Assembly: GCA_021774155.1 (NCBI GenBank) | Contig: JAJFJH010000145.1 | Span: 1-37,599 of the forward strand | DNA: 37,599 nt | Source of the DNA: Nitrosomonas sp. | GTDB lineage: Bacteria; Pseudomonadota; Gammaproteobacteria; Burkholderiales; Nitrosomonadaceae | Direction of reading: 5' to 3' | Shown here: positions 9,427 through 34,114 of the stretch, one piece after another | Layout of the letters: each line of letters opens with the position of its first letter | Position numbering within the stretch: the first letter of the stretch is position 1 | Translations under genes and position numbers: made by a program | Notes under the pieces: model-generated | Told to the model about the DNA's origin: nothing | What the model saw: only the letters and a program-made list of their open reading frames with translations | Database searches by the model: none

Positions 9427-9529
9427 ATATCAGGATTCGTCAGGCTAGATTGAGGTAAAAAGTTTGCCAAAGCTTGTATAGGTGTTTTATGTTTTAATGT
9501 TCCCTCTGTGCCAGCATCCAGCATAGTTG

Positions 9530-9560
9530 TTGTCTCTAATTTTCAACTAGAGGTAGACAA
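9530..9560 (+). repeat. Imperfect inverted repeat before the transposase remnant
   Basis: TTGTCTCTA (9530-9538) pairs with TAGAG (9548-9552) and AGACAA (9555-9560) with a two-base bulge and a 9-base loop. It lies directly before the start codon of the orfA remnant and could be a leader hairpin or part of the former insertion-sequence end. I cannot tell these apart from one copy. Confidence 0.35.
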
Positions 9561-9562
9561 GA

Positions 9563-9822
9563 ATGAGAACAAGATTCAAGCAAGCCTATAAAATACAAGC
9601 AGTAGAAAAAGCGCTTACTCGCAGCGAAACGACAAATTTGGCGGAAATAGCAGAATTCTTGGGAGTTAGTTATTCAACCCTGCAAAGTGAATTGCCCAAT
9701 CAAGAAAATAAGAACTTGAATCTGTCTCAGGAAATGAATTGTCGAGTTTAACGAACATGATGAAAGAGGAAAGACAGCAGAATTGGAATCTGGAAGAACG
9801 ATTCAATATTATCATTGCTTAG
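9563..9822 (+). pseudogene. Degraded IS3-type transposase orfA remnant
   Basis: The first frame (9563-9751, 62 residues) begins MRTRFKQAYKIQAVEKAL and continues with a small helix-turn-helix (LAEIAEFLGVSYSTLQ), typical of the DNA-binding orfA of IS3-like elements. It then hits a stop. A second frame from 9757 reads MMKEERQQNWNLEERFNIIIA before a TAG at 9820; as I remember this orfA family, a K-E-x-R-x-x-x-W-x-x-E-E-R segment with that ending lies further along the same protein, so the two pieces look like one gene broken by a frame change. No orfB follows; the remnant ends at the hairpin at the flagellin stop. Non-functional as a transposase. It is the only gene-like content of the 399-bp gap between der and the flagellin. 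Confidence 0.7.
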
Positions 9823-9845
9823 ATGCTATCTAAGTAATGATAATA
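9807..9845 (-). terminator. 18-bp near-perfect hairpin across the flagellinolysin stop codon
   Basis: The arm at 9807-9824 is the reverse complement of 9828-9845 with a single G-T type mismatch, separated by three bases (9825-9827). It includes the last codons and stop of the flagellin gene on the minus strand and the last stop of the transposase remnant on the plus strand. The stem is AT-rich and no clear T-run follows on the minus strand, so it is terminator-like rather than a textbook rho-independent terminator. It might also be a scar from the IS remnant. Confidence 0.5.
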
Positions 9846-11538
9846 GCATTTGAGGAGATGAGTTTGCTTGTGCGGTTACGGCAAGTGCTGCTTGTTGCGT
9901 TATTTGTGATCGGGTAAGCGATGCGGTTTCACTGGCAAAATCAGCATCTTTAATACGAGACCGACTGGCCGTTATGGATTCGGTGCTAGTTTGATTGTTG
10001 GCTATGGCGGAGTCAAGACGGTTTAATTGTGCGCCGACTCTTGCTCTTTCTCCATTAATGTAATTAAGTGCCATGTCTATTTGAGTAATAGCAAACCCTG
10101 CGTTAGTCATAAGGTTAACGTCAGTAATAGCCAGTGCGTTTGTATTAACCGCGCCAAAAGATACATCTAGTGTTTGCCGAGCATTCGCGCCTACTTGGAG
10201 TGATTTGGTGTTACTCGTTGTTGCCGTGCCAACGATGTCCTCCCAAATCTCATTAAACCCATTCAGAGGGTTTGTTGTGTTGCCTTTTATACCGGTATCC
10301 GAAACGACACTCTCAGCTGTTTTTACGGATCCACCGTCAGCATTTGAGCCTCCAACGGCGCCAGTATCAGCGTCTGTTAGGTTCATGCCAGCTATGAAGG
10401 CTGCGCCGTTAGCAACGAAATCAGCATTGAATAAATCAGCGGTGGCAAATGTAGTGGTGGCATTGATCGCATCATCAAGTTTTGCAGCCGGATTTTGATT
10501 CATAAAGACCATAACATCCTTGATACCATTTCCGCCATTGTTTTTTACTTCCTGGTGTAGATAACGTATAGCTGAATAGGCAGCCGAGTATTCATCCGAA
10601 GTGCCGCCCCATGCGCCACCAGCCGAACCAAAATTTCCTGCCGCAGCGACAACACCCGCAATACCAACATTGGCGATGGAAGTAGCTAACCGTTCGTCTG
10701 CGCCGTGAATAAATTCTGCGGCGCCTTCTAGAAACCATGTTTGATCATTGGCGTTGACAATCTCGCCGATATTTACACCTCGATACATAACCGCATGTAC
10801 CATTTCATGGGCAATAATTCGGTCATTATAAAAAGGCGCAGTACCGCCATTTGGAAGATTTGGTGGTGTAAAGTCGCTCATGTCGATCTGAAGTGTGACA
10901 CTTGTGGCCTTGCCAGAAACAGGTACTAAGCCTCCCACGCGAGCTGCGGTGCCACCAAGGCCGTCAGTGAATGTTGTTAACTCAATGCTGAGATCTGCAC
11001 CGTCAGCTGTAATACCAAAGTGTTGTTGAATCATGTTTTCTGCCTGCTCTAACCAACCAGACTGAAGTCCATAAATGACAGTAACTTGATTGGGATCACC
11101 TAAAACGCTAGCTGTGCCAGAATCAAATATTTTTTCATTATTGAATGAAGTGGTTGTTGCAACGCGTTCAATTTCCTGAATGAGTTGGTCGACTTCAGTT
11201 TGTAGTGCTCTTCGGTCATCTAAGCTGTTGGTAGCATTTGCAGCTTGTACGGAAAGCTCACGAATACGTTGTAGTGAACCAGCGACTGACGTTAATGCGC
11301 CGTCTGCAGTTTGCAGCATGGAAATACCGTCATTAGCATTTCTTGTCGCCTGATTAAATCCACGAATTTGTGACGTCATACGCTCAGTGATGGCGAGACC
11401 AGCCGCATCATCTTTAGCGCTATTAATACGTAGGCCCGAAGAAAGGCGTTCTAAAGAACGACTTAAATCTAGATTAGTCGTAAACAAATGTCGCGAACTA
11501 GTCAACGCAGCAATATTCGTATTTATCGTGGAACTCAT
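9826..11538 (-). CDS. Flagellin with inserted zinc metallopeptidase domain (flagellinolysin type)
   Basis: A 570-residue flagellin. Residues 1-140 are a canonical D0/D1 N-terminus ([32 protein letters not shown]) and 465-570 a canonical C-terminus ([11 protein letters not shown], ending QMLLSLLR). Between them, about 150-435, the hypervariable region is a metallopeptidase: zinc motif HEMVH at 244-248 with E245 as expected catalytic base, and [14 protein letters not shown] at 271-284, whose E275 (or E271) should be the third ligand in a gluzincin arrangement. This is the layout of flagellinolysins, proteolytic flagellins described in several phyla that assemble into active filaments. Frame is intact and motif residues are present, so activity is plausible. 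No strong Shine-Dalgarno is seen (AAGAA before ATG). It stands alone, divergent from yheS, about 26 kb from the other flagellin. Confidence 0.9.
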
Positions 11539-11573
11539 TTCTTGTTTATATATTAATTAATTTCACAGTGACT

Positions 11574-11599
11574 TAAACGGAAGGGTTTTTTAATTCTTA
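11574..11599 (-). promoter_or_regulatory. Weak candidate sigma-28 promoter for the flagellin
   Basis: On the minus strand TAAGAATT-N10-TCCGTTTA lies about 36-61 bases upstream of the flagellin ATG. It resembles the FliA consensus TAAAGTTT-N11-GCCGATAA only partly and is one base short in spacing. Recorded because late flagellin genes are normally FliA-dependent and nothing better is visible nearby. Confidence 0.22.
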
Positions 11600-11724
11600 A
11601 TACTAACCTGATGAATAGATTAAAATAATCAAGATTTTTATTGAGATGACTCTGTTTGATCATAAAAACCTTAGATATAAAATCTTTTTAAAATGATATT
11701 GATTTGTAAATTGGTCGAATAAGC

Positions 11725-15190: not shown

Positions 15191-17086
15191 TTAGGCTTGA
15201 CTTTTACCTTTTGAGGTATTTCTTTCTTGACGTATGATACCTTCGTTTGTGTTAGTACGGGCTTGTTTGGCAGCTGCAATTTCTGCTCGTATTCTTGATG
15301 CGGCGGCGACAGTAGCCTCTTTGTCCAGTTTAGTGCGTTCTTGCGCTGCTTCTTTAGCCATTGTCTCAACGGCTTCGCGTTCAGTTGCTTGTTCAATTGC
15401 ATTCTTATCACTAATAATGCGTTCTTGGATGGCTTTTAGCGCGGCGGATTCAGCTTTGGCTTTAGCAGCCGCTGATTCGGTGGCTTCTTCTTCAGCTTTC
15501 AGACGTGCTTTAGCATCAGCAGCGGCTGCAATCTTTTCTTGCACTTTGATCATTGCCAGCTTTGTTGTTTTTTGTTCGGCCTCAAGTCGTTCTGTTACTT
15601 CTTTCTTTGACTGGGTGATTGCTTCAATACGTATTTTCGCATCTTCTAGTAAACGTGTTTCTATGTCAGCCAATGCCTCTGCTTCAGTCGTGGATAGGGT
15701 GTCTGCTTCAGCTCGTAATGTTGCAATTTCTTGAGCTTTAGTTTCTGCTTCAGTTTTTTCATCTGCAGCTTCTTTTGCGGCGGTTTCAGCTACAACGCGT
15801 GTACGAGATTTATCAATTGCTGTTTTCTCAGCTTCAATCCGAGCCTGAATGATTTCTGTTTCTTCAACATTCACATTCGCCTTTTCTTGAGTTATCAATA
15901 TTTCTTGGCGCTCAGCTTGGATGCGAGCCTCTTCAGCGGCAGTTGCCTCTGTCTCGACTTTAAGGCGTTCTTCTTGACGAAGCTTAGCTTCTTCGAGTAA
16001 GCGTGATTTCTCTTCAACTTTGGACTTGGCAAGTTCAGCTGCGACTTTATCAATCTCGACAATGGATTGTGCGAGTGATGTCGCTTCTTGTTCGGCGATA
16101 GTAAGAGCGTGAGCCGCAGCCGTGGCTTCAATATCTGCGGCGGCACGTTCTTCGGCCGCGTTTGCGGCTAAGGTTTCTGCCTCAATTCTTGCTTGTGCTG
16201 TTTTGGTGGCAATTATTTCTGTCTGCTCTTTTCTTTCTTCAGCTTCTAGTGCTTCAATTTCTGTTTCTAAACGAATACGTGCTTGTTCAAGTATTTGTGT
16301 TTGGATTTGATTACGTTTTTCAATGGTTTCCTTTGCTTGATTTTCGGCCTCTATGGTAGCATTGATCAATGCTAATTCTTTCTCACTTTCCTGGATCTTG
16401 GTATAGGCTATTGCTGCTGCCGTAGTTTCGGCTTCTGTAACGGCAAGAGAAAGTTGGCGAGCTTCTTCTTCTACTTTGCTTCTGGCAAGTGCAGCTTCTG
16501 AAGCGGCTTTTTCTGCTAATACAGCTGCATTTGCTTTGTCTAATGCTTTAGCTTCTTGATCAGCGCGAATATGAGCTTTTTTAATAATAGCTGCGTCAGC
16601 TTGTATCTTAGCCTGCAGCATCATGTTAATTTCTTTCTCAGCTTTGATGCTTTCTTCAGTTAGTTGTTTTGCCTTAATTTCTAGCTCTTTGTGGTGAATG
16701 GCTTCTTTAGCGGCAATTTCTTCTACCTTAGCTTTGGCTCTAGCTGCCACGGTTGCAGCTGTTTCTGCTTTGGTTCTTTCTTCTGCCATCGATCGGGCAT
16801 TAGCTTCAGCTCGGGCGCGGGCTTCTGCGGCAACACGAGCTTTAGCATCTGCTTCAATACGACTTTTTGCTTCTTTGATGGCCTGATCCTCAGCATCTAG
16901 GCGTTCACGACGAGTTTTTTCACTTTGTAAGTTAATTTTAATAGCCGTGTCGATTTCAGATTGCGATGAAAATTCGTTGTGTGTGTTGTCGGCTGCATTC
17001 ATAACTTTTGTCTTTTCACATTTGGTTTCCCTTGTTTCCTGTGATGGACTTAAAATTGATTTTATTAATTTAGACTTAAATGTCAT
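15191..17086 (-). CDS. Very long Ala/Glu/Lys-rich helical (coiled-coil) protein, unknown function
   Basis: I do not recognise a family. The 631-residue product is built almost wholly of Ala, Glu, Lys, Arg, Thr and Ile. I find no Gly and no Pro from about residue 15 to about 610, a single Tyr and no Trp, so it should form one uninterrupted helix or coiled coil, possibly about 85-90 nm long if extended. Degenerate long repeats are visible, such as KSRTRVVAETAAKEAADEKT near residue 430 echoed by QATEREAVETMAKEAAQERT near 580. There is no signal peptide or membrane segment, so cytoplasmic location is expected. The start is the first ATG; another in-frame ATG lies at residue 29 and neither has a clear Shine-Dalgarno. 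It is cotranscribed with the exported DUF4139 gene. Confidence 0.75.
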   Translation of the reverse strand: MTFKSKLIKSILSPSQETRETKCEKTKVMNAADNTHNEFSSQSEIDTAIKINLQSEKTRRERLDAEDQAIKEAKSRIEADAKARVAAEARARAEANARSMAEERTKAETAATVAARAKAKVEEIAAKEAIHHKELEIKAKQLTEESIKAEKEINMMLQAKIQADAAIIKKAHIRADQEAKALDKANAAVLAEKAASEAALARSKVEEEARQLSLAVTEAETTAAAIAYTKIQESEKELALINATIEAENQAKETIEKRNQIQTQILEQARIRLETEIEALEAEERKEQTEIIATKTAQARIEAETLAANAAEERAAADIEATAAAHALTIAEQEATSLAQSIVEIDKVAAELAKSKVEEKSRLLEEAKLRQEERLKVETEATAAEEARIQAERQEILITQEKANVNVEETEIIQARIEAEKTAIDKSRTRVVAETAAKEAADEKTEAETKAQEIATLRAEADTLSTTEAEALADIETRLLEDAKIRIEAITQSKKEVTERLEAEQKTTKLAMIKVQEKIAAAADAKARLKAEEEATESAAAKAKAESAALKAIQERIISDKNAIEQATEREAVETMAKEAAQERTKLDKEATVAAASRIRAEIAAAKQARTNTNEGIIRQERNTSKGKSQA

Positions 17087-21925: not shown

Positions 21926-23185
21926 CTAAGCAAATGTATTTACTATGCCATTATGTCTATTAAGGGAGATTGTGGATTCGACTTTGCCCATTGACTCATC
22001 GTTCATCCCGGTTAAATGGGAGTCGTAACCATGGCTTGATGATTCTTTATTATTTTGCTTAGTGTCAGCTTGCTGTTGAAATGATTCCGCTCCAACAGAA
22101 ACGTCTCCGAGTGTGATGCCATTTTCCGCCATCATTTCTCTCAATCGTGGTAATGAAGCTTCAATTGCTTCCCTTACAGCTAAATGAGAAGAAACAAATT
22201 GGACGGTTGCTTGATCACTGTTAATGTTTAACATGACCTCGACAGGACCTAGATGCGCCGGATTGAGTCGAATCTCAGCCACTTGCTGTTGTTGAGATGA
22301 TAACCATACTACTTTTTGTGCGAGTTCTCCCCCCCATTTTGGCTGCCCAACTTGGGAGTCAATACCTAGACTTTGCGGCATAGACGTTGTTGATGAAGCA
22401 TAAGGCGTCGTCGAGGAAAGATTGCTAATCCCACCTAGCTGTGTAAATTCAGATGACGTAAATTTCATTGATTCGTTTGTGCTGGTTAAAATGGTGCTGT
22501 TGGCATCGGCTCTTGGCGGCAAGATTTGGTCAAAAGTGGCAGAATTTGCCGCGCCATATGGTTGTTGTCCATTACTTGAGTAGCTGTTAAAAGTAGGAAT
22601 GTAGCGTGAGGAGCTTTGTTGTGCTGATTGACCGGACGCCAACAATGAAGCGCCGGTTGTTTGTCCTTGGTTACTGGCAATGTGGCCAATTGACGCATTA
22701 ATGGGGAGCGTGGGTGATATTATTGCTGCAAAAGGCGACATTGTCTCATTATCAGGAAGTGCTTCTATGTTAAGTGCTTCTATGTTAAGTGCTTCTATGT
22801 TAAGTGCTTCTATGTTAAGTGCTTCTATGTTAAGTGCTTCTATGTTAAGTATTTTTATATCGTTATCTAATTCAGGTTCTAGCTCGAGTGAAATGGTTTT
22901 TTTGGGGGAATTGTATTGAGTTAGTTTTGATGCGTTTTCTGGTGTTTGTGGTGGCGTTTTAACATTGCTTTGTTTTGCTGGTGATTCTTCAGTAGGTGTG
23001 GTCGTACTATTGGCTGTATTGGCTGTATTGGCTGTATTGGCTGATTTGTCGCTAATTTCTTTTGCCAATATTTTATTGAATTGCTCATTTTCGGGTAAAT
23101 TGTTTGCCGATATATCTGCATTAGTCGACATAGTTGAATCACTAGGATTCGTGTTTGCTTGAGGCGGAATAGTAAGATTTAGCAT
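21926..23185 (-). CDS. fliK: Flagellar hook-length control protein FliK
   Basis: Secreted ruler that measures hook length and switches export from hook to filament substrates through FlhB. I place the start at the ATG ending at 23185 (419 residues). The upstream in-frame ATG at 23225-23227 lies within a few bases of a sigma-54 promoter and upstream of its expected transcript start. The N-terminal two thirds are low-complexity Ser/Thr/Asn/Gln, including a TAN repeat and six tandem LNIEA units. The C-terminal Flg_hook domain (about 305-390) is clear: WGGELAQKVVWLSSQQQQVAEIRLNP, LGPVEVML, LPRLREMMAENGITLGDVSV. fliJ precedes it; a second FliK-like gene lies at 33098-34114. Confidence 0.92.
   Translation of the reverse strand: MLNLTIPPQANTNPSDSTMSTNADISANNLPENEQFNKILAKEISDKSANTANTANTANSTTTPTEESPAKQSNVKTPPQTPENASKLTQYNSPKKTISLELEPELDNDIKILNIEALNIEALNIEALNIEALNIEALNIEALPDNETMSPFAAIISPTLPINASIGHIASNQGQTTGASLLASGQSAQQSSSRYIPTFNSYSSNGQQPYGAANSATFDQILPPRADANSTILTSTNESMKFTSSEFTQLGGISNLSSTTPYASSTTSMPQSLGIDSQVGQPKWGGELAQKVVWLSSQQQQVAEIRLNPAHLGPVEVMLNINSDQATVQFVSSHLAVREAIEASLPRLREMMAENGITLGDVSVGAESFQQQADTKQNNKESSSHGYDSHLTGMNDESMGKVESTISLNRHNGIVNTFA
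22758..22847 (-). repeat. Six perfect 15-bp tandem repeats inside fliK
   Basis: The unit AGTGCTTCTATGTTA occurs six times without a mismatch, followed by a decayed copy. On the coding strand each unit gives LNIEA. The period is a multiple of three, so copy-number changes would lengthen or shorten FliK in steps of five residues without breaking the frame. Perfect identity at the DNA level implies recent expansion. Confidence 0.95.
23009..23044 (-). repeat. Four 9-bp tandem repeats inside fliK
   Basis: ATTGGCTGT is repeated three times and followed by a fourth copy with one change. It encodes a Thr-Ala-Asn run in the N-terminal part of FliK. Like the 15-bp array nearby it is in frame and could change copy number by slippage. 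Confidence 0.9.
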
Positions 23186-23227
23186 AGGAATTTTCTTGCG
23201 ATATATAAATATTAAGATATTTAACAT

Positions 23228-32029: not shown

Positions 32030-32773
32030 TTAGTTTGCTCTGTGTTTTTGTTCTAGTTTAACGATATAACGTTGAATCATCGCGTGTGTTTTTGCAGGTG
32101 GCTTAATGAATTCGCATCCCGCACGTTTACAAGTGATCTCGTTGTGAAGCTTGACTTCGTAAGTGTTTTTCACCTCAATACTCGCAGTAATTGTCCCAAT
32201 TTCAGGTAGTGTGATTTGGCAATTTTCAAAGATAGTTCCAGGGTCAAAGCTGACGATAGGGTGTTGATCAATCACCGCAATACCTCCACAACTAATGTCA
32301 AGTAAAACAACTTCGGCTGTTTTGGGTTTATATTCTTCAGGTAATGGAATAATGCATATTAAAGGCTTGACTGAAGGTGTTGTTATGCGAAAGAAGTCCC
32401 TTCTTTGCATACGTACCAGAGACTCAGGTAAGTTAACAATAAACGCGTTATCATCTTGAAACTTTATCTTTTTAATTGAATTACATTTAAATTCAACTTT
32501 TACTTTAGCTTGTGATGTAACACAGGTTAGTTTGGCTGTATTTAATACTTTCCGATTTAATTTTTCGTCATTGCCATAATCTAAAATCATTTTTCTGTTT
32601 ATCGGATCAATTGCTAGAATCGATGACAGAATAAAGTTATCGCCTTGGTTAAAGTAAAGCGTGATGAGTGTTTTTGCTTGCATGATTCCGCGTAGCACGA
32701 ACTGAATATCAGAATCATTATGGGTAGCGTAACTATCTTCAGGGGCTATGGGTGTTTGGTCTGGTGTGGGCAT
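32030..32773 (-). CDS. PilZ-domain flagellar brake protein (YcgR/FlgZ type)
   Basis: Likely cyclic-di-GMP receptor acting on the flagellar motor. The 247-residue protein has an N-terminal YcgR-like domain (about 24-115; FVLRGIMQAKTLITLYF) and a C-terminal PilZ domain with both ligand motifs intact: RxxxR at R125-R129 (RRDFFR) and DxSxxG at D159-G164 (DISCGG). So binding is expected. It is the last gene of the minus-strand flagellar run, overlapping the end of the FlhB-like gene by 28 bp. E. coli ycgR is the nearest functional model. Confidence 0.9.
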   Translation of the reverse strand: MPTPDQTPIAPEDSYATHNDSDIQFVLRGIMQAKTLITLYFNQGDNFILSSILAIDPINRKMILDYGNDEKLNRKVLNTAKLTCVTSQAKVKVEFKCNSIKKIKFQDDNAFIVNLPESLVRMQRRDFFRITTPSVKPLICIIPLPEEYKPKTAEVVLLDISCGGIAVIDQHPIVSFDPGTIFENCQITLPEIGTITASIEVKNTYEVKLHNEITCKRAGCEFIKPPAKTHAMIQRYIVKLEQKHRAN

Positions 32774-33117
32774 TGTTTGCTGGTTTCCATTTTTTGTTGT
32801 GGGCTATTCAAGTCCGATGAATTACTTGAATTAGCTGTTAGTATTTCTTCCTTATGTTCTAATCGATAGAGCCATGCTAATAGTTCAGCCACCGCTATAT
32901 AAAGTTGTGGTGGAATACGGTCGTCCAGGTTTACCTGCATTAGTAGTGCTACTAGTTCTGTAGACTGATGAACATATATTCCAGATTCATTCGCTCTTTT
33001 AATAATTTCCTCAGCGATAACACCATTGCCTTTGGCGACAACTTTTGGTGCTGATTGACCATTACGATAAGCAAGAGCGACAGCGGATTGAATTGTCTTA
33101 TTTTTCGGTATCTGCAT
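32746..33117 (-). CDS. FlhB C-terminal domain homologue (FlhX/YlqH type)
   Basis: A 123-residue soluble protein resembling only the cytoplasmic tail of FlhB downstream of its self-cleavage site. The segment AVALAYRNGQSAPKVVAKGNGVIAEEIIKRANESGI, then DRIPPQLYIAVAELLAWLYRLEH, lines up with the FlhB export-switch domain. The NPTH cleavage motif and all membrane helices are missing: the protein begins MQIPKNKTIQ where NPTHY would be. Such stand-alone proteins (FlhX, B. subtilis YlqH) can partly replace the cleaved FlhB tail. Its start overlaps the end of the second FliK-like gene by 20 bp, suggesting a functional pair. The C-terminus is low-complexity. Confidence 0.88.
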   Translation of the reverse strand: MQIPKNKTIQSAVALAYRNGQSAPKVVAKGNGVIAEEIIKRANESGIYVHQSTELVALLMQVNLDDRIPPQLYIAVAELLAWLYRLEHKEEILTANSSNSSDLNSPQQKMETSKQCPHQTKHP

Positions 33118-34114
33118 GTATCTCTAACGCCTTAACGCTTAGGCCGGCAGATTCTAAGGCCATAGCTAGTGGCGGCTGATTAGTTTTTAATAATTCTATG
33201 GTTTCAGTTGCTGGCGCATGTAACTTTATACGTACATCCTCAGAATTAAACATTAGTGTTGCGGTAATCTCTCCTAGCTTTGGCAATGTAAGACGTAGTT
33301 GTGTTTGCCATTGGGGCGATGATTCCTCCGGGTTTTGTCCACTCTTATCGTGTGCATGTTCAGTAATATCCCAGTCCATGAATTGTTCGGGCCAGATTTC
33401 ACCGCACCAGTGTATTTGGCCAGAATCTAATGTGGTTAGCTGGTGTTGCACCAAAGGTAAGCTTTGTGTGTTAACAAGCGTGTCGGCATTAAATAAAACG
33501 GCGGTAGAGCCCGTGACTGCACTATTCGTTGTTTTTACACTTAGTTTACCTTGAGGTTCTTGTTGTAATTGTGCCAGTGTTTTTTCTCCGTTTACCCATT
33601 TTGCTTGATGAGATTCATAGAATAACCCACTTTGTGACAATGCTTTTTGTAATAAAACGGGTGTTTCTACATTATTTGTTGGTGGATTAGTTAGAACAGG
33701 AGTTGCGCTAGAGAGTGGCTGCGGCGTCGTGTTTTTAGCTGCGTCTTGTGCTAATAAACCAAGAAAGCGTCCCGTGGCGCTTATGTTTGAAGGACTCTTC
33801 TCAGTGTTTAGGGGAGGGTTATTTTGCAGCACAAACTTTAATTGTGGTTCCCTTGCAATTAGCACAAGTGCCATTTTGTCGCCAGGCCGTGTATTTTCTG
33901 GTAGGCGCATTTGTAATGCTTGATTTCCAACTAAAACTTTAAAGTTGCCGTTAGAGAGTTGGGTGTCAACCGTAGCTAGGAATTGCTTGCCCTGGGAGAA
34001 ATCTTGTGGCGATTTTAAGGAATCAGAAGCAGATTTAACAGGTGTGACAGGCGTAACCGATTCAATCAAAGCCGTTTTTAGAATAGCATCTGTTTTGTTT
34101 ATGAACGGAATCAT
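33098..34114 (-). CDS. Second FliK-like hook-length control family protein
   Basis: A 338-residue protein with FliK architecture: a variable N-terminal region containing a small beta stretch (FKVLVGNQALQMRLPENTRPGDKMALVLIAREPQ, about 58-91) and a C-terminal Flg_hook-like domain (about 250-338; WQTQLRLTLPKLGEITATLMFNSEDVRIKLHA, then LAMALESAGLSVKALEI). It differs strongly from the fliK at 21926-23185. With the FlhB-like gene that overlaps its end it forms the pair known as ylqG-ylqH in Bacillus. Whether it acts in hook length or a separate export switch is unknown. Confidence 0.82.
   Translation of the reverse strand: MIPFINKTDAILKTALIESVTPVTPVKSASDSLKSPQDFSQGKQFLATVDTQLSNGNFKVLVGNQALQMRLPENTRPGDKMALVLIAREPQLKFVLQNNPPLNTEKSPSNISATGRFLGLLAQDAAKNTTPQPLSSATPVLTNPPTNNVETPVLLQKALSQSGLFYESHQAKWVNGEKTLAQLQQEPQGKLSVKTTNSAVTGSTAVLFNADTLVNTQSLPLVQHQLTTLDSGQIHWCGEIWPEQFMDWDITEHAHDKSGQNPEESSPQWQTQLRLTLPKLGEITATLMFNSEDVRIKLHAPATETIELLKTNQPPLAMALESAGLSVKALEIHADTEK

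Follow-up and report, generated by a model that had tools for sequence, protein, structure and literature searches.

A flagellinolysin in Nitrosomonas: active site, predicted fold and distribution of a metallopeptidase flagellin

Enzymatic flagella are little studied, and the accounts in PMC5595980 and PMC7643111 give two biochemically characterised cases, both belonging to the flagellinolysin (FlaMP) family: FliA(H) of C. haemolyticum (PMC5595980) and HgrFlaMP of H. gracilis (PMC7643111). The family is named MEROPS M101 in PMC7643111. In C. haemolyticum, up to 10% of the subunits are reported to be of this type, which by the authors' reckoning gives 1000–2000 sites per filament (PMC5595980). 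Here, we describe a gene predicted to encode a member of this family in Nitrosomonas sp., located on contig JAJFJH010000145.1 of assembly GCA_021774155.1 (C52 in our numbering), of which positions 1 to 37,599 were analysed (hereafter the window). The draft genome measures 3.88 Mb in 475 contigs and is 96% complete and 5.2% contaminated.

Like FliA(H) and HgrFlaMP, the protein has flagellin N- and C-terminal ends, an HExxH motif with a distal Glu and an Ala, and a gluzincin-like domain occupying the hypervariable region. An ordinary flagellin is encoded elsewhere in the genome, which is also the case in C. haemolyticum. It differs from both relatives in its organism group (Nitrosomonas) and gene context. 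The family itself is already described; the member added here comes from a genome grouping with Nitrosomonas ammonia oxidisers. Literature searches returned no report in Nitrosomonas, and the genus is unnamed in the main texts of PMC5595980 and PMC7643111, although the database behind these papers may already include the present sequence or a close one. Two Pseudoalteromonas papers matching 'proteolytic flagellin' carry the phrase in their reference lists only.

Architecture, active site and predicted fold

The gene reads without interruption from an ATG at 11538 to a stop codon at 9828–9826 on the minus strand. A first-pass annotation of this DNA had given the right coordinates and an intact frame, leaving the strand unstated; on the plus strand, frame 1 over 9826–11538 is interrupted by many stops. 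The annotation had also named the flagellinolysin family and claimed that both polymerisation ends of flagellin are kept, and the profile searches agree on both counts: the NCBIfam equivalog model NF033876 (flagellinolysin) matches residues 112–500 with 433.1 bits (E 1e-129, cut-off 205), while the Pfam models Flagellin_N (148 bits) and Flagellin_C (71 bits) score above their cut-offs at the two ends. By the equivalog model, the architecture, the conserved active-site residues and the predicted fold, the protein is a flagellinolysin (MEROPS M101).

The active site of FliA(H) consists of H233, E234 and H237, with E262 as the third ligand and A265 as the 'basement' residue (PMC5595980). In the protein studied here, HEMVH and EGAAE are found at residues 244–248 and 271–275, exactly as first annotated, and H244, E245, H248, E271, G272, A274 and Y317 are identical in all 49 distinct full-length relatives of our alignment, a conservation somewhat favoured by the fetching of part of these relatives with patterns containing HEMVHAVM (the loci of the genus survey were found with the whole-family model instead). 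The roles of E271 and A274 are assigned because these residues correspond to E262 and A265 of FliA(H). E271 is thus the expected third zinc ligand next to H244 and H248, and E275, which the annotation had counted among the zinc-site elements and which is kept in 48/49 relatives, is not expected to be needed. The conserved Y317 had been overlooked in the annotation.

The second His and the Glu are separated by 22 residues here and by 16 to 25 across the 49 relatives. In a weak profile match to an M1 glutamyl aminopeptidase (E 0.019), HEMVH aligns with HELVH, the E271 stretch with NEG and Y317 with the tyrosine of YSKG; we take the glutamate of NEG to be the zinc ligand of M1 peptidases and the tyrosine of YSKG to be their catalytic one. 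The underlying profile search of the Protein Data Bank (PDB), used solely for this alignment, gave weak matches only, the best of which (E 0.017) is an apparently unrelated chimera. A calcium-site aspartate is reported for FliA(H) at D206 (PMC5595980). With FliA(H) lying outside our alignment, its counterpart may be either D219 (D in 43/49 relatives) or D222 (D in 44/49).

The conservation set was obtained from 52 rows by removing 3 duplicates. A flagellin without a peptidase domain (L047) was excluded from the count, as were five loci unmatched over residues 5–535 (L019, L034, L037, L040 and L046). L034, L037 and L046 retain HExxH and WFxEGxA, and L040 stops before the site. The flagellinolysin at L019:1519–3242 (the same copy as L151, from genome G023) carries a frameshift and no longer has the second zinc His.

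The first-pass annotation had proposed a gluzincin zinc site and a comparison of the middle domain with known peptidases through structure prediction, and this comparison supports the proposal indirectly. The metallopeptidase domain is modelled confidently (pLDDT 89.6, with means of 97 and 98 for the ten-residue blocks containing HExxH and E271), and structural alignments of the model with gluzincin peptidases extend over about 190–225 residues; the middle domain is therefore confidently predicted to be a gluzincin resembling M30, M9 and M1 peptidases. These likenesses are distant: the peptidase domain of clostridial or Vibrio-type M9 collagenases has 10–17% identity to this domain, with the Pfam M9 score below its cut-off, and the M30 peptidase lugdulysin (7bb8), which is no flagellin, has 16%.

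Taken as a whole, the best explanation, which we hold to be very probable, is a flagellinolysin that would be exported, polymerised with ordinary flagellin and active as a zinc endopeptidase on the filament surface. The conserved ends would allow export via the flagellar type III apparatus and polymerisation with the cell's ordinary flagellin, placing the middle domain on the outer face of the filament as a zinc-dependent, and probably also calcium-dependent, endopeptidase. Zinc would be held by H244, H248 and E271, with water activated by E245 and the transition state probably stabilised by Y317. We infer the activity, a preference for hydrophobic P1' residues and the display on the filament from the two characterised relatives.

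Table 1. Positions in the window of the flagellinolysin gene, its domains and motifs, and a candidate promoter
Feature	Position	Strand	Remarks
Flagellinolysin gene, 570 aa, ATG to stop	9826..11538	-	Intact frame; NF033876 433 bits vs 205
N-terminal flagellin D0/D1, residues 1–140	11119..11538	-	Flagellin_N PF00669, residues 5–140
C-terminal flagellin D1/D0, residues 485–569	9832..10086	-	Flagellin_C PF00700
Gluzincin metallopeptidase domain (predicted), residues about 150–400	10339..11091	-	
HEMVH, residues 244–248 (H244, H248 zinc ligands, E245 general base; predicted)	10795..10809	-	Conserved 49/49
WFLEGAAE, residues 268–275 (expected third zinc ligand E271, 'basement' A274)	10714..10737	-	Conserved 49/49
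Y317, candidate transition-state tyrosine	10588..10590	-	49/49; aligned with M1 Y, weak match
Possible degenerate sigma-28-like promoter	11574..11600	-	From 62 bases before the start codon; 8 of 11

Distribution and descent in the genus

The best named relatives of the protein come from Nitrosomonas (69–72%), and the carriers include the named strains Nitrosomonas aestuarii Nm36, N. marina Nm22 and N. marina Nm71. Above the cut-off, flagellinolysin occurs in 28/149 genomes: 24/85 in the genus (this genome included) and 4/64 others, with 0/14 among the control genomes. A looser E-value yields 105/149 genomes, mainly because it picks up short segments of ordinary flagellin. Since amoA is detectable in 14 of the 24 carriers (this genome being one of the 10 in which it is undetected), the carriers include ammonia oxidisers. 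A search for amoA (PF02461) across the 85 genus genomes did not find it in this genome, nor in 38 others. Collapsed repeats are a likely cause of such misses in drafts, because the single-contig genomes of the genus are mostly multicopy: seven of nine have two or three copies of amoA, one has a single copy and one (89% complete) has none. This genome also carries, at a contig edge, a fragment of PF13447, a family of multihaem cytochromes to which hydroxylamine oxidoreductase belongs.

Across the 13 genomes for which both sequences were available, flagellinolysin and the housekeeping GTPase Der show concordant protein distances (Mantel r 0.88, p 0.0002), a pattern consistent with inheritance along the species lineages and repeated losses. 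Compared with the closest relative, from genome G071, the gene has 93 synonymous and 40 nonsynonymous changes, and its dN/dS is 0.117 overall and 0.154 over residues 150–400, next to 0.060 for Der; purifying selection on the gene is shown here by this sequence comparison. Three copies of the survey are not whole as assembled: the one in G023 is frame-shifted, and those in G004 and G080 are split over contigs. In the single-contig genome G020, a 131-residue C-terminal remnant is all that is found (L142:6445–6840), flanked by open reading frames sized like those beside intact copies, which suggests in-place decay.

A tree of the N-terminal regions of 50 flagellinolysins and 77 labelled ordinary flagellins places the gene in a 20-leaf clade (support 0.86) with flagellinolysins only of the genus (17 leaves), Spongiibacter (L011) and Povalibacter (L027), plus L040; the structural flagellins fetched from the genus all lie outside it. 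L040, which our script had labelled an ordinary flagellin, aligns with this gene at 72% across residues 3–225; it is probably a flagellinolysin truncated at a contig end. As the N-terminus itself groups with flagellinolysins, the whole gene is shared, beyond the domain alone. This N-terminal tree is short and midpoint-rooted, and it spreads the 50 flagellinolysins over more than one clade. Several insertions and transfers of flagellinolysin were proposed in 2017 (PMC5595980), with which this non-monophyly is compatible.

Expression signals and alternative explanations

The ordinary flagellin of this genome is on contig C475 and runs off the end of that contig; C292 encodes another Flagellin_N protein, which resembles FlgL. 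Structural flagellin genes were fetched from 21/24 carriers (none for G071, G023 and G080). All 21 have 5–7 Shine-Dalgarno bases and a sigma-28-type site 122–139 bases upstream that scores 9–11 of 11, whereas none of 21 flagellinolysin genes (20 from the same genomes and that of G071) has at least five Shine-Dalgarno bases. Thirteen of these 21 flagellinolysin genes share TAAA-N16-TCGTTAA 56–62 bases upstream, a motif that was chosen after inspecting the copies, whose sequences are related. Scores against the canonical sigma-28 consensus overlap between flagellinolysin genes (7–9 of 11) and structural flagellin genes (9–11), and the candidate promoter of this copy (Table 1) matches the clearer motif of the 13 copies in position. 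Read from these signals, and on weaker grounds than its predicted activity and display, the protein may be a minor component of mixed filaments, as in C. haemolyticum. The first-pass annotation had suggested that the filament could carry thousands of protease sites, a number that may or may not be reached: since this genome also encodes an ordinary flagellin, a mixed filament is likelier, and the reckoning for C. haemolyticum is 1000–2000 sites per filament (PMC5595980).

Several results weigh against the explanation preferred here. A Foldseek comparison with solved structures gave no match at E 0.001 (best E 0.012), and the Pfam M9 model (PF01752) reaches 18.1 bits over residues 243–329, below its gathering score of 26; the tie to characterised peptidase folds thus rests on the model and the family. 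The broken copies in G023 (L019) and G020 imply that the gene is dispensable. At least five Shine-Dalgarno bases precede only 6 of the 25 other genes of the window (19 are without), so that their lack argues weakly for a low dose: by this measure flagellinolysin is ordinary, and it is fliC that is strong. A sigma-28 promoter was not established for this copy, as 39% of shuffled sequences also reach 8 of 11. One alternative view is that the protein is a flagellinolysin by descent that no longer serves as a filament protease here, being too little expressed or inactive, with the gene being lost. Its patchy presence in the genus, the frame-shifted G023 copy without a whole HExxH, the remnant in G020, the weak promoter-like site and the absent Shine-Dalgarno sequence would fit this view; the intact frame, the retained catalytic residues and the low dN/dS relative to G071 argue against it, and we consider it unlikely.

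Two further explanations concern the origin of the domain and the make-up of the filament. An M9 collagenase recently captured by a local flagellin could account for the weak Pfam M9 match and for M9 peptidase domains being among the best structural matches. However, the M9 score stays under the curated cut-off, the N-terminal tree unites the protein with flagellinolysins, among them the Spongiibacter and Povalibacter ones, to the exclusion of the structural flagellins fetched from the genus, and the account in PMC5595980 reports that cleavage of type I collagen by FliA(H) was not found. Such a capture is hardly credible, and the N-terminal grouping together with the sub-threshold M9 match led us to rule it out. 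A separate, mainly proteolytic filament, in place of a minor part of a mixed one, would agree with the complete D0/D1 ends and with the clear promoter-like motif of their own in 13/21 genus copies, yet the genome encodes an ordinary flagellin that has strong signals, and the C. haemolyticum protein is described as spread evenly over ordinary filaments (PMC5595980); we regard it as quite improbable.

Genomic context and meaning for Nitrosomonas

The flagellinolysin gene has der on one side and an ABC-F gene on the other, with fliR-fliF 5.8 kb away. In G071 (Der 95–96% identical), the match spans 1.9 kb around the gene (window 9807–11700); the ABC-F gene is found on the same contig, 6.7 kb off, with APS-kinase and DHH-family genes between, and der is on another contig. 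Within 9493–9807, where the match to G071 breaks, a 62-codon frame (9563–9751, plus strand) has a sub-threshold match to a transposase helix-turn-helix (PF01527, 18.3 vs 24.1 bits) and may be a mobile-element remnant. At locus L147 (4014–6582 and 8531–10228), from another genome of the genus, the gene stands between chromate-transporter and multicopper-oxidase genes, near a PF10023 aminopeptidase gene, and L140, L145 and L146 have neighbours similar in size. Peptidases are reported among the neighbours of flagellinolysin genes (PMC5595980). Elsewhere in the window, an Ala/Glu/Lys-rich, coiled-coil-looking protein of 631 residues (15191–17086, minus strand) adjoins the fliR-fliF cluster and has no Pfam or NCBIfam match, and at 32746–34114 (minus strand) a second Flg_hook (FliK-like) protein adjoins an FlhB C-terminal-like protein, the FliK of the main cluster being at 21926–23227.

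For the family catalogue, this flagellinolysin is an ordinary addition; its interest lies in the host and in the role of the enzyme. The genus Nitrosomonas is lithoautotrophic, which narrows the options for that role because feeding on protein would not supply the energy of the cell. It is conceivable, although we think it rather doubtful, that the flagella of Nitrosomonas ammonia oxidisers contain a conserved protease subunit at low dose, kept under a variant flagellar promoter of its own, which would make these bacteria lithoautotrophs with a proteolytic filament. If so, this filament could, for example, attack the flagella or matrix of neighbouring cells, or free peptides from which partner heterotrophs produce ammonium. 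The named carrier strains would make the role of the enzyme testable.
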